Positions 16,855 through 19,930 of a stretch of 43,613 nt of DNA are shown here, piece by piece (within the stretch, counting starts at the first letter, position 1; every line of letters begins with the position of its first letter). The DNA lies in NCBI RefSeq assembly GCF_009996735.1, contig NZ_JAACYI010000028.1, positions 1 to 43,613 on the forward strand. The letters run 5' to 3'. The translations under genes were made by a program, and so were the position numbers. Under the pieces are notes generated by a model. It searched no databases and was not told the DNA's origin. It saw only the letters and a list, made by a program, of their open reading frames with translations. This stretch comes from Cellulomonas sp. APG4. GTDB lineage: Bacteria; Actinomycetota; Actinomycetes; Actinomycetales; Cellulomonadaceae.

Positions 16855-16910
16855 CGTACATCTGCATCGCGACCGTACATGCGCATGTACGCCGTCGCCG
16901 CAGATGTGCG
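16855..16910. repeat. 56-bp four-part palindromic element, copy A
   Basis: CGTACAT half-sites occur at offsets 0 and 19, and the inverted form ATGTACG at offsets 30 and 49 (the last one reads ATGTGCG). The core CGTACATGCGCATGTACG (16874-16891) is a perfect palindrome. The two 28-base halves match as inverted repeats at 21 of 28 positions. It lies between the TetR gene and the alcohol dehydrogenase gene, both on the minus strand. See copies B and C, which have identical spacing. Confidence 0.9.
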
Positions 16911-16965
16911 GCCTCGCCGGCCGAGGCATGGGCGCGGCGCAGGTGTGCGGCTCACCGGCCGAGGA

Positions 16966-17010
16966 GTGGGCGAGACCGCGCGCCGAGGGTGGGTGAGACC
17001 GCGCGCCGTG
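16966..17010. repeat. Two 22-bp direct repeats
   Basis: GTGGGCGAGACCGCGCGCCG occurs at 16966 and again, with one change (GTGGGTGAG...), at 16989, a period of 23. CCGGCCGAGG is also repeated at about 16917 and 16955. The gap between copy A and the end of the TetR gene is thus built of short repeated blocks and has no coding potential that I can support. Confidence 0.7.
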
Positions 17011-17022
17011 GGGCGGGTGGGG

Positions 17023-17727
17023 TCAGCGCGCGCCCAGGGCTGCGTCGATCAGCACCTCGGCGGCTCGTCGGGCCTGCCGCGCCGCATCCGCGCGGCCGGC
17101 GATGGCCGCCGTCGTCTGCGCACCCTCGGCGAGCAGGGCGAGCTGGGCGCCGAGCGTCTCGTCGCCCCCGGCGTCGCGCGTGAGGCGTGCCACGTGGTCC
17201 TGGAAGGTCTGCTTGTGCTCGCGTGCCGCCGCGGCGACGGCGGGTGACGTGGCGCCCAGCTCGCCGAACGCGTTGATGAACCCGCAGCCCCGGAACGTCT
17301 CGTCGGTGAACCACTCCTCGAGGAAGTCGAAGATCGCGAGCAGGCGGGTGCGCGGGTCCTCGACCCCCGCGGCCGCGCGCCCGAGGCCGTCCTCCCACTG
17401 GTGGTGGCGCGACTCGAGCACGGCGAGCACCAGCTGCTCCTTGCCGGGGAACTCGGCGTAGAGGCGCTTGAGCGAGACCCCGGCAGCGGTGCGCACCTCG
17501 TCCATGCCCACGGCCTGGATGCCGCGTGCGTAGTAGAGCGCGTCGGCCGCGGCGACGATCCGCTCGCGCACCTCGACCTGCGTCGCCGCGGTGCTCGCCC
17601 GCCGAGTGCTCGTCGTCCCGGTCCGCGCTCGCCGAGCGCTCGTCGTCCCAGACCCCGCCTGCCCGGTCCCCGCCCGCCCGGTCCGTGGCACCTCGTCCGT
17701 GACGTCGCGCCCTCGCGTGCCCGCCAT
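17023..17727 (-). CDS. TetR-family repressor
   Basis: The 234-residue product starts at the ATG at 17727. The first ~50 residues are a low-complexity Thr/Arg/Ala/Gly-rich extension ([19 protein letters not shown]) that is not part of the usual fold. The HTH follows: [52 protein letters not shown]. The C-terminal part contains [14 protein letters not shown], typical of the TetR_C subgroup that precedes small oxidoreductase or hydrolase genes. It is divergent from an alpha/beta hydrolase gene, with two identical operator palindromes between them, so it probably represses both genes. The inducer is unknown. Confidence 0.9.
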
Positions 17728-17784
17728 GGTCCACCCACCTTTCACCGCGCCGTCGTCGGCCGGTCATCTCTCGGCCCTTGCGCC

Positions 17785-17836
17785 GAGAACGATCGTTCTC
17801 TACTGTAGCGGACATCAGCGGAGAACGATCGTTCTC
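17785..17836. promoter_or_regulatory. Duplicated TetR operator
   Basis: GAGAACGATCGTTCTC is a perfect 16-bp palindrome at 17785-17800 and is repeated exactly at 17821-17836, centres 36 bp apart. It lies in the divergent gap between the TetR gene and the hydrolase gene and covers the region where both promoters must be. The repressor encoded at 17023-17727 is the obvious ligand. Confidence 0.88.
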
Positions 17837-17858
17837 CCACGATCGCGAGGGGCTCATC

Positions 17859-18695
17859 ATGGGACGCATCACCGTCGGTACGGAGAACTCGGTCGACATC
17901 GAGCTGCACTACGAGGACAAGGGCACGGGCCAGCCGGTCGTGCTGATCCACGGCTTCCCGCTCGACGGGAACTCCTGGGAGGGCCAGACGGCGGCGCTGC
18001 TCGACGCCGGCTACCGGGTCATCACCTACGACCGCCGCGGCTTCGGCCAGTCGAGCCAGCCGTCGATCGGCTACGACTACGACACCTTCGCGGCAGACCT
18101 GAACACGGTCCTCGAGACCCTCGACCTGCACGACGTCGTCCTCGTCGGCTTCTCGATGGGCACGGGCGAGGTCGCGCGGTACCTCGGCACCTACGGCTCG
18201 GCACGCGTCGCGAAGGCCGCGTTCCTCGCCTCGCTCGAGCCGTTCCTGACGCAGACCGACGACAACCCCGACGGCGCCGTGCCGGCGTCGTTCTTCGAGG
18301 AGGTCGCGGCGAAGGTGCGCGCCGACAGGTACGCCTACTTCACCGCCTTCTACGACGACTTCTTCAACCTCGACGAGAACCTCGGCACGCGCATCAGCGA
18401 GGAGCAGGTGCGGCACGCGTGGGACGTCGCGGCGGGCTCGGGCTCGGTCGCCTCGGCGGCGGCACCGCTCACGTGGGGCACGGACTTCCGCGCCGACATC
18501 CCCAAGGTCGACGTGCCCGCGCTGATCCTGCACGGCACGGGCGACCGGATCCTCCCGGTCGACGCCACCGCCCGCCTGTTCACCAAGGCGCTCCCAGCGG
18601 CCACCTACGTCGAGATCGAGGGCGCACCCCACGGCCTCCTCACCACCCACACGGCAGAGGTCAACGAGGCGCTCCTGACCTTCCTGGCCAGCTGA
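17859..18695 (+). CDS. Alpha/beta hydrolase (non-haem chloroperoxidase/esterase type)
   Basis: This is a 278-residue single-domain alpha/beta hydrolase starting at the ATG at 17859 (GAGGGG upstream). The oxyanion segment is [14 protein letters not shown]. The nucleophile elbow is GFSMGTGE with Ser99. The acid is Asp229 in [10 protein letters not shown], and the base is His258 in EGAPHGL. GFSMGxGE and YDRRGFGQS are characteristic of the cofactor-free haloperoxidase/esterase branch. The natural substrate is unknown. It is controlled, by inference, by the divergent TetR gene through the two palindromes just upstream. Confidence 0.9.
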
Positions 18696-18773
18696 CCCCG
18701 GGCGGGCGGCGCCCCGCCCCCACCCCGGCGCCGACGCCCCGCCCCCACCCCGGCGGCGCCCCGGCGCCGACGC

Positions 18774-18829
18774 CGTACATCTGCAGCGGGGGCGTACATC
18801 CACATGTACGTCGTCGCTGCCGATGTACG
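18774..18829. repeat. 56-bp four-part palindromic element, copy B
   Basis: All four half-sites are exact: CGTACAT at offsets 0 and 19, ATGTACG at offsets 30 and 49. The halves pair at 22 of 28 positions. Compared with copy A, the middle of the stem has changed on both arms (GCAGCG against CGCTGC), which keeps pairing. It lies between convergent genes, 19 bases past the stop of the DUF559-like gene. The gap before it (18697-18773) is C/G-rich with a short direct repeat of CGCCCCGCCCCCACCCCGGC. Confidence 0.9.
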
Positions 18830-18848
18830 TCCGGGGTGGGGCGGCGCG

Positions 18849-19760
18849 TTACCGGAGCAGGGCAGGACGAGGTGTCAGGGCCGGGAAGAGTCGGCGGAGG
18901 CGACGGGTGAGCGTCGCGGGATCGCGGAGGTCCTCGGCGACCAGGCGGAGGAGGCGCCACCCGGCGTCGAAAAGGGCGTCCTCCCGCCGCTTCTCGCGCA
19001 GGACGGCATCCGGAGTTCCTGCGTACTTGCCCCGCCCGTCGTACTCGGCGAGCACGCACGCTTCCGGCCACCCGACGTCGGCCCAGTACGTGCCGAGGTG
19101 GGTGGGCGCCGCCACCTGGGTCTGCGGTGGGGGTGCTCCGGCGGCCAGCAGCGCGACGCGGGCGAGGCTCTCGCCCGCCGACTCGGCGCCGTCGTCGGCC
19201 AGGTCGAGGACGGTCCGCGCGCGGACCACGCCGCGCCGGCCGGCCATCCCGGTCAGGAGGTCGTGGCAACGCAGCACGTCGGCGCCGCGGTGGAGTGCCG
19301 CATCGGCGACCACGACGCCCCCGCGGATGCTCTCGGTGCGGGCGCAGTCGACCACCGTGCGTTCGAGGCTCGTCACGCGCAGCCCGTGCAACGCGACGAC
19401 GTCGTCGTCGCCGACCGCTGGGCGATGGCGCGTCAGGTCGGCGGGGCCGCCCGCCCGCGAGGAGTAGCGCTGCGTGATGTGGGTGGTCGTCGGCGCGCGA
19501 AGCACCGGCAGTCCCCAGAGCAGCGCGGCTGACGTGTGACTGACGACGGCGTCGCAGGTCAGCTGCCGTCGGAGCGCGCTCATCCGTGCGAGTGCCAGAG
19601 TCCGGGCGTCGTCGGGTCCGCCCAGGAGCGCGGCGTCGACGTAGGCGCCCGGTCGAACGCGCTGCCAGGTCCCGTCCCGCACCAGGGCTGCGACGACGCT
19701 CCGCTCGTGATCGCGCGCGAGGTGGACGGGCGGCGGCGCAATCGGGGGTCCGATGCGCAC
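18849..19760 (-). CDS. AbiEi-type HTH plus DUF559-like nuclease-fold protein
   Basis: This is a protein of about 303 residues from a GTG at 19760; longer frames would enter repeat copy C. Near the N-terminus, VVAALVRDGTWQRVRPGAYVDA resembles the winged-helix start of AbiEi-like proteins. The C-terminal third has VLAEYDGRGKYAGTPDAVLREKRREDALFDAGWRLLRL. This matches the DUF559/VSR-like restriction-endonuclease fold, where E-x-DG...K and the following helix carry the active site. Such proteins are abundant and unexplained in actinobacteria. No partner toxin gene (AbiEii) is next to it. It is bracketed by palindromic elements B and C. The start codon is uncertain. Confidence 0.75.
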   Translation of the reverse strand: MRIGPPIAPPPVHLARDHERSVVAALVRDGTWQRVRPGAYVDAALLGGPDDARTLALARMSALRRQLTCDAVVSHTSAALLWGLPVLRAPTTTHITQRYSSRAGGPADLTRHRPAVGDDDVVALHGLRVTSLERTVVDCARTESIRGGVVVADAALHRGADVLRCHDLLTGMAGRRGVVRARTVLDLADDGAESAGESLARVALLAAGAPPPQTQVAAPTHLGTYWADVGWPEACVLAEYDGRGKYAGTPDAVLREKRREDALFDAGWRLLRLVAEDLRDPATLTRRLRRLFPALTPRPALLR

Positions 19761-19874
19761 CCCTGGTCGTCGTCCCACCGCCCCACCGTGCCTCAGCCGA
19801 CCCCTCGCCCTCCCGTCATCCACAGCCCCAGGCGCGCTACCGGCCCGCCTCTGACGGCCCTCCTGCCGCCACGC

Positions 19875-19930
19875 CGTACATCTGCACCCAGGCCGTACAT
19901 GCGCATGTACGGCCTCGCCGTGCATGTACG
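19875..19930. repeat. 56-bp four-part palindromic element, copy C
   Basis: All four half-sites are exact and fall at the same offsets as in A and B (0, 19, 30, 49). The inner part GCCGTACATGCGCATGTACGGC is a perfect 22-bp palindrome, extended by AGGCC/GGCCT pairing to 13 matched bases per arm. The halves pair at 22 of 28 positions. It lies between two tandem minus-strand genes, about 115 bases before the DUF559-like start. Confidence 0.9.

Follow-up and report, generated by a model that had tools for sequence, protein, structure and literature searches.

The palindromes and the gene between them

A palindromic element occurs three times in the analysed stretch of Cellulomonas sp. APG4 DNA (contig NZ_JAACYI010000028.1, 43,613 nt; hereafter the window), and the gene situated between the second and third copies encodes a protein of 303 amino acids (aa) in which an AbiEi-like DNA-binding part is joined to a probable nuclease part (Table 1). 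Together, the palindrome family and this nuclease gene look like an unrecognised DNA-binding or DNA-copying system. Copies A and C occupy gaps between tandem genes, and copy B a gap between convergent genes. The name of the alcohol-dehydrogenase-like gene beside copy A was read from its translation, and its start was set to 16798 by reading, the gene finder having placed it inside the copy.

Table 1. Coordinates of the palindrome copies and of the nuclease gene and its parts in the window
Feature	Position	Strand	Description
Palindrome copy A	16848..16917 (70-bp form); core 16855-16910	none	Solitary; follows the 3' end of a TetR-type gene and precedes the 5' end of an alcohol-dehydrogenase-like gene
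Palindrome copy B	18767..18836; core 18774-18829	none	Flanks the nuclease gene on its 3' side, as it does an alpha/beta hydrolase gene
Palindrome copy C	19868..19937; core 19875-19930	none	5' flank of the nuclease gene
Gene for the 303-aa protein, proposed palindrome partner	18849..19760	-	AbiEi-like DNA-binding part and probable Vsr/DUF559-type nuclease part
AbiEi-like N-terminal part, ~residues 1-207, proposed half-site reader	19140..19760	-	PADLOC AbiEi models, residues 20-207; partial Mantel correlation
C-terminal probable nuclease part, ~residues 190-303	18852..19193	-	Weak match to Pfam REase_MTES_1575
Candidate active site D228, E239-x-D241-G, K245	19026..19079	-	Invariant in 48/48 aligned homologs

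A preliminary description of this DNA had reported a spaced pattern of four half-sites at the three core positions. The pattern was recovered there with one, zero and zero mismatches in copies A, B and C, respectively, and exceeds chance, with no match in 100 dinucleotide shuffles. Against an expectation of 0.95, the heptamer CGTACAT has 15 occurrences in the window, eleven of them within the three copies. The full-length dyad symmetry, put at 21 to 22 of 28 positions, is borne out by arm pairing of 21, 22 and 22 positions. The spacing within the described 56-bp unit likewise stands, but its size required correction, as CGAGGC precedes each CGTACAT in the consensus and the conserved unit thus comprises approximately 70 bp. 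The consensus of thirteen aligned copies (the three of the window and ten more) reads GGCGAGGC-CGTACAT-CTGCA-GCGAGGC-CGTACATGC, followed by roughly its reverse complement. A fixed common orientation had been proposed on the basis of CTGCA after the first half-site, which is present in just 7/13 aligned copies, and is therefore unsupported. The element can be described as a palindrome of about 70 bp in which two tandem half-sites, CGAGGCCGTACAT, placed 19 bp apart, are followed by two inverted ones. Across the family the general half-site type is CGAG-N-TCG-NNN with a 19-bp period, and a third tandem unit is present in one copy (L011). The motif GTAC, at one stage regarded as the key, was discarded as being the version of this half-site used by some species, while an identity with integron attC sites was dropped, as the known attC boxes do not fit the palindromes. 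The palindrome element gave no match in phage or plasmid collections. At the Rfam gathering threshold the sole match in the window is a thiamine pyrophosphate (TPP) riboswitch, with none on the palindromes, and at a relaxed threshold four weak matches far under the gathering scores were obtained, two of them to microRNA models on copy C.

The gene between copies B and C was passed over in the preliminary description. The AbiEi models of PADLOC match all 48 aligned homologs of its 303-aa protein, with the Pfam domains AbiEi_4 and AbiEi_1 recognised in 11/48 and 6/48, respectively. For the C-terminal part, REase_MTES_1575 was found in 13/48 homologs at E <=0.01 (best 5.2e-6) and DUF559 in 5/48. 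Nineteen alignment columns are invariant in 48/48 homologs, including D228, E239, D241, G242, K245, E256 and R259, among which D228, E239, D241 and K245 are presumed to be catalytic by analogy with the PD-(D/E)XK and DUF559 families. A comparison of the homolog profile with PDB sequences returned one weak, unrelated match. The pN/pS ratios of 0.18 to 0.54 in ten homolog pairs point to purifying selection on the nuclease gene. Homologs at E <=1e-20 are encoded in 172/221 genomes of the bacterial family, belonging to 22 of its 25 genera. The window gene is neighboured by the alpha/beta hydrolase gene and a short-chain dehydrogenase gene and has no AbiEii toxin gene beside it (the search for AbiEii covered this locus).

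Distribution of the palindromes within and between genomes

In the genome to which the window belongs (3.74 Mb in 48 contigs) thirteen copies were found at <=3 mismatches, and a covariance model added two of GAGATCGCAC type, bringing the total to at least 15; more may exist, as 150 of 9564 first candidates were scored in that search. On the basis of a home-made gene finder, eleven of the 15 copies lie in tandem, three in convergent and one in divergent gaps. Fourteen of them are situated 16 to 112 nt after a stop codon and, with the exception of copy A, those in tandem gaps are nearer to the stop of the upstream gene than to the next start (10/11). Ten neighbouring proteins compared with Pfam are unrelated and mostly housekeeping, and include an aldolase, a bile-acid symporter family protein, an Fpg-type glycosylase, RecR and a mannose-6-phosphate-isomerase-type protein. 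A second homolog of the nuclease gene in this genome (L135; G000:C21:2400-7200) is accompanied on both sides by palindromes with half-sites of a different type (GAGTTCGCAC), and its open frame is shorter than those of other homologs.

The four-site pattern of the window has no match in 58 relatives, and a looser CGTAC pattern gave one unlike site each in just 2 of 220 other genomes. These negatives first suggested a species-specific family, which proved wrong because other species carry different half-sites. A scan of named genomes for CGTAC spacing led to Actinotalea caeni (Cellulomonadaceae), the genome of which contains 58 pattern matches at <=3 mismatches, as compared to none in the control. 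The spacing constraint noted in the window thus recurs beyond it. The A. caeni copies, 48 of which were aligned, carry another sequence, CGAACTCGTAC...GTACGAGTTCG, and often occur in groups of two to four at distances of 112 to 255 bp, some with repeated flanks. Among the seemingly divergent A. caeni gaps with copies, a tRNA gene is present in the gap at L045 and L053, with none at L041, L048, L050 and L027. In L041, L048 and L050 the intergenic gaps span roughly 0.4 to 1.3 kb and contain two to four palindromes, between which no gene is predicted; tblastn with four nuclease proteins showed no remnants of the nuclease gene in these three gaps. A second A. caeni half-site type, CGTGC/GCACG, was observed at L052 (from 4087 onward) and L056 (3587 and 3882); in L052 it forms a lengthened tandem array with a 19-bp unit.

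A covariance model built on the two species matched in 87/221 family genomes and 12/25 genera, in a scan that scored 20 candidates per genome, favoured long hairpins and is no census. At the 26 of 28 loci for which the sequence at the model match was available, the same plan with other half-sites could be recognised by eye. Two Streptomyces stretches and one from Bdellovibrionaceae, obtained in a scan of genome contigs, were rejected because by eye they comprise a tandem repeat and palindromes that do not resemble the present ones. A tandem repeat of GTACGGGTACG type in Streptomyces sp. H27-S2 (L019:3116) meets the spacing pattern and looks unrelated.

Palindromes flank the nuclease gene

In five other loci, too, relatives of the 303-aa protein adjoin palindromes. 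Fifty loci were compared, of which thirty, including that of the window, were returned by a protein search, and twenty were hand-picked for spread (nineteen from the search list, together with the A. caeni locus, where palindromes were known beforehand). With the search reaching 320 bp from the gene and a threshold of 22 or more pairs out of 31, a palindrome occurs on both sides of the gene in 30/50 loci, on one side in 18/50 and on neither in two (L138 and L145). On one side of each of these two, a palindrome of 20 pairs follows the plan. Among the testable gene sides 78/99 passed, as opposed to 22/133 control sides taken from different genes of these loci (Fisher, 4.8e-22). The control sides were delimited by gene-finder ends and stretches of 330 bp (340 bp for the homologs), after dropping those with the best palindrome <=350 bp from a homolog; by gene-finder ends 65/99 homolog sides pass. 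Inspection by eye of the other side of the eighteen one-sided loci revealed the plan or a tandem unit below the threshold in eight, and one side was untestable.

Upstream of the gene, the palindrome centre is a median of 167 bp away from the start (37 sides); downstream, its median distance from the stop is 54 bp (41 sides). These positions, as well as those of the solitary copies shortly after stop codons and nearer to the upstream stop, would suit operators or insulators, where the protein represses its own gene and, at the scattered sites, blocks or ends transcription where genes end, the sites being regulatory and immobile. The AbiEi proteins of two species are described as binding sets of inverted repeats and repressing their own promoters (PMC7319586). 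This is the main rival explanation, and one that we regard as unlikely, however, given that the ten scanned neighbours suggest no regulon, that neither a terminator nor an operator needs a nuclease with invariant candidate active-site residues, and that the site is missing from an otherwise conserved gap in one species, as detailed below.

Half-sites change in concert with the protein

Within a locus, the outer and inner half-sites at offset 19 agree at 0.76, compared to 0.50 between loci (38 even-centre loci; permutation p 5e-5), while agreement at offsets 16 to 18 and 20 to 22 is 0.19 to 0.26. Tandem half-sites cannot pair with each other in a hairpin, and the agreement at offset 19 thus points to a protein that reads them. 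The steady half-site positions correspond to CGAG..TCG, while positions 1, 6 and 10 to 12 of the 12-bp half-site vary most between loci and agree within them. Odd centres were observed in L121, L142, L148, L149 and L152, and in L106 only by way of an artefact considered below; the odd-centre loci and the 83-position covariance-model matches of one genus suggest a 20-bp period. Where a locus has both palindromes, these agree more in their half-sites (0.85) than in their spacers (0.71).

Over 44 loci, the distances between half-sites correlate with those between the proteins (Mantel r 0.40, p 2e-4), this set being the 48 aligned homologs less two without a palindrome over the threshold and two with misplaced centres. 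When each part is controlled for the other, the AbiEi part (residues 1-205) retains a partial correlation of 0.21 (p 0.003), and that of the nuclease part is weaker (0.12, p 0.10). Furthermore, scattered copies most resemble the gene flanks of their own genome in 8/11 genomes when compared with eleven gene sets and in 7/11 when compared with all 44 (permutation p 1e-5). The eleven copy-gene pairs were formed by hand, and nine of the genomes contributed a single copy. G228 has two genes, of which the one with fitting flanks (L139) was used rather than L117.

Symmetry of the arms

In the preliminary description, the pairing of the variable middle parts was taken to suggest that folding or symmetry is selected. 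Within genomes this does not hold. For the thirteen own copies the observed arm pairing was reached in 97 of 500 arm shuffles and the covariation score in 59/500, with three inner pairs showing double changes, and for the 48 A. caeni copies in 326/500 and 247/500, respectively. Across subfamilies both pairing and covariation score lie above all 500 shuffles, although the count of doubly changed pairs is unremarkable (70/500). At four palindromes that by eye seem orthologous, all from the gap of a solitary G084 palindrome treated below, 4 to 10 pairs have changed on both arms per species pair, of which 1 to 7 are still paired; relative to the 1.7 to 5.1 such changes expected by independence this is a modest excess. 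The copies of each genome follow a palindromic consensus from which they decay without compensation, and the consensus varies between genomes. This fits a copy family or protein-tied sites better than hairpins that are each maintained singly.

Intrinsic bidirectional terminators or RNA hairpins, with symmetry selected in each copy and the nuclease gene being incidental, would account for the hairpins predicted near gene ends (a feature of intrinsic terminators), for the joint change of the arms between subfamilies and for the both-arm changes at the orthologous site. We nevertheless hold this explanation improbable, as pairing within either genome is no better than in the shuffles, and as it leaves unexplained the agreement of tandem half-sites at 19 bp and the palindromes beside one kind of gene in 48/50 loci. 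Template switching is a known mutational process by which palindromes are corrected. Together with gene conversion among repeats it could neutrally give rise to symmetry and drift, including the both-arm changes at the orthologous site, in the absence of any function; the greater agreement of half-sites than of spacers within loci and the tie to one protein family render such an origin highly improbable.

Gene position, orientation and an empty site

In one genus, 9/50 loci are located between MntH-type and sigma-factor-type genes (named from their translations) and have differing half-sites. With 20 more stretches, picked with and without the nuclease gene, 28 places were examined. The nuclease gene is present in this gap in 16/28, each time with at least one palindrome over the threshold. 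Where the gene is absent and both neighbours were found, there is a palindrome in 0/5 places, and among the other gene-free places, with the second neighbour missing, one palindrome at the threshold was found in 4/7. When MntH is placed forward, the nuclease gene runs forward in 4/16 and backward in 12/16 places. The opposite orientations belong to different species (L131, L168, L173 and L174, as against L115, L116, L119 and others), as if the gene had flipped between its inverted palindromes.

The orthologous gap of a solitary palindrome in G084 was recovered in seven of nine genomes searched. In G102 this gap measures 20 bp and lacks a palindrome. Two palindromes occupy it in G084 and G140 and a single one in G101, G134, G100 and G083, with several half-site types among them. 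Such presence and absence, along with the A. caeni clusters and their partly repeated flanks, would also be expected of miniature inverted-repeat transposable elements (MITEs), non-autonomous copies of an ordinary transposon moved by some other transposase, with the nuclease gene as a passenger in a palindrome-flanked cassette. No target-site duplication could be recognised by eye at that gap, however, and in many genomes it is the same protein family that adjoins the palindromes, the sequences of both drifting in parallel. Furthermore, no Y1 transposase (PF01797, IS200/IS605 type, to which the RAYT proteins considered below belong) was detected in the window's genome, the one genome searched and for this one transposase family, with 5/14 control genomes being positive. 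We accordingly judge a MITE origin about as improbable as the terminator explanation.

Other features of the window

The TPP riboswitch (3735-3870, above the Rfam gathering score) lies upstream of a run of plus-strand genes from 3936. The sequence GAGAACGATCGTTCTC is found twice at 17785-17836, between a TetR-type gene and the divergent alpha/beta hydrolase gene, and perhaps represents operators of the latter. Long G and C runs at 43463-43581, near the contig end, may explain why the assembly stops there.

Proposed mechanism

A mobile element resembling repetitive extragenic palindromic (REP) sequences and a protein-binding array of half-sites had been offered as separate explanations of the palindromes; both gain support, and they may be two sides of one system. 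On sequence grounds, we somewhat favour a system similar to that of REPs and their associated tyrosine transposases (RAYTs), with a nuclease in place of the tyrosine transposase and the palindromes as recognition sites of the 303-aa protein. The best-supported step is that the AbiEi-like part recognises the four half-sites, which the partial correlations and the offset-19 agreement render likely. This part would bind each half-site, with four subunits per element, after which the Vsr/PD-(D/E)XK-type part would nick or cut at or near the palindrome, and repair or replication would then copy the palindrome into other intergenic places. The gene and its two flanking palindromes would constitute the autonomous unit, from which the scattered palindromes would derive as non-autonomous copies, a relation like that of REPs to RAYT transposases; as the specificity of the protein drifts, flanking and scattered sites would follow. 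Cutting and copying by the nuclease part we infer from the invariant residues, from the presence or absence of the site at one gap and from the likeness to RAYTs. The fuller proposal, namely a new class of self-spreading DNA in which an AbiEi-Vsr-type nuclease gene flanked by 70-bp palindromes seeds solitary copies by cutting and copying, with sites that change along with the protein, is possible but tentative. If true, the REP/RAYT way of life would have been invented twice, independently.

Several observations weigh against the REP/RAYT-like proposal. The occupation of the same gap in 16/28 places indicates vertical inheritance in that genus rather than frequent hopping, and the absence of a recognisable target-site duplication, mentioned above, also bears on copying. 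Homologs of the nuclease protein are absent from the plasmid (E 1e-15) and phage (E 1e-8) collections. The match of the window protein to REase_MTES_1575 (E 0.0055, 17.2 bits) falls below the curated cut-off of 38.2. As related species are not independent, the evidence is overstated by the Mantel and permutation values. For the homologs and the controls equally, palindromes were picked by their pairing. At L106, counted among the thirty two-sided loci, the second palindrome is a C/G-rich run where a contig ends, and in 9/18 one-sided loci nothing resembling the plan is present up to 320 bp away on the opposite side.

Comparison with known systems

RAYT genes are described as being flanked by REPs and as co-evolving with them (PMC2817692, PMC3116915). 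The present system shares with REPs, their doublets (REPINs) and RAYTs, as these are portrayed in PMC2817692, PMC3116915 and PMC3733652, a partner gene between two palindromic repeats, scattered copies in mostly intergenic 3' positions, species-specific sequence, and the co-variation of protein and repeat, which is observed here uncorrected for the kinship of the species. It differs in its protein, which combines an AbiEi-like part with a probable Vsr/DUF559-type nuclease where RAYTs are Y1 transposases, and in its element of approximately 70 bp with four half-sites at 19 bp, although REPINs also form larger hairpins and length alone is thus no difference. The GTAG or CGTC tag that stands beside REPs was not found in the flank consensus of the 13 own and 48 A. 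caeni copies. The plan is therefore RAYT-like, without a Y1 transposase in the own genome and without the tag in two species, and may represent a new class.

The likeness to AbiEi of the type IV AbiE toxin-antitoxin systems lies in the AbiEi-like DNA-binding part and in the binding of inverted repeats (PMC7319586). Unlike AbiEi, this part is joined to a probable nuclease part, and its proposed sites occur on both sides of the gene and genome-wide; the AbiEi repeats are given as 23 bp in PMC7319586, in contrast to 12-bp half-sites at 19 bp. The models that the AbiEi-like part of the homologs matches are classed with phage defence, and the present findings suggest a further role for genes of this sort. 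A paper on HEPN proteins (PMC3710099) names the Vsr-type domain MTES_1575. No link between an AbiEi or DUF559 protein and flanking palindromes was found in the titles and abstract openings of the open-licence PubMed Central literature.

Vsr-fold and free-standing homing endonucleases, such as I-Bth0305I, provide a further comparison. They have in common with the 303-aa protein a Vsr-type fold (probable here) and a possible spread by cutting, but no intron or intein context was seen at the present loci, and long palindromes flank the gene and occur in many scattered copies.

The system offers a protein together with its putative site, as well as a half-site code that can be read from variable positions 1, 6 and 10 to 12, and thereby natural protein-site pairs in which drift in DNA-binding specificity can be studied. 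Some genomes are said to hold palindromic repeats without a known dedicated transposase, a statement made of the CGTC class (PMC3733652), and the palindromes described here link repeats of this kind to a probable nuclease that is unrelated to the RAYTs.

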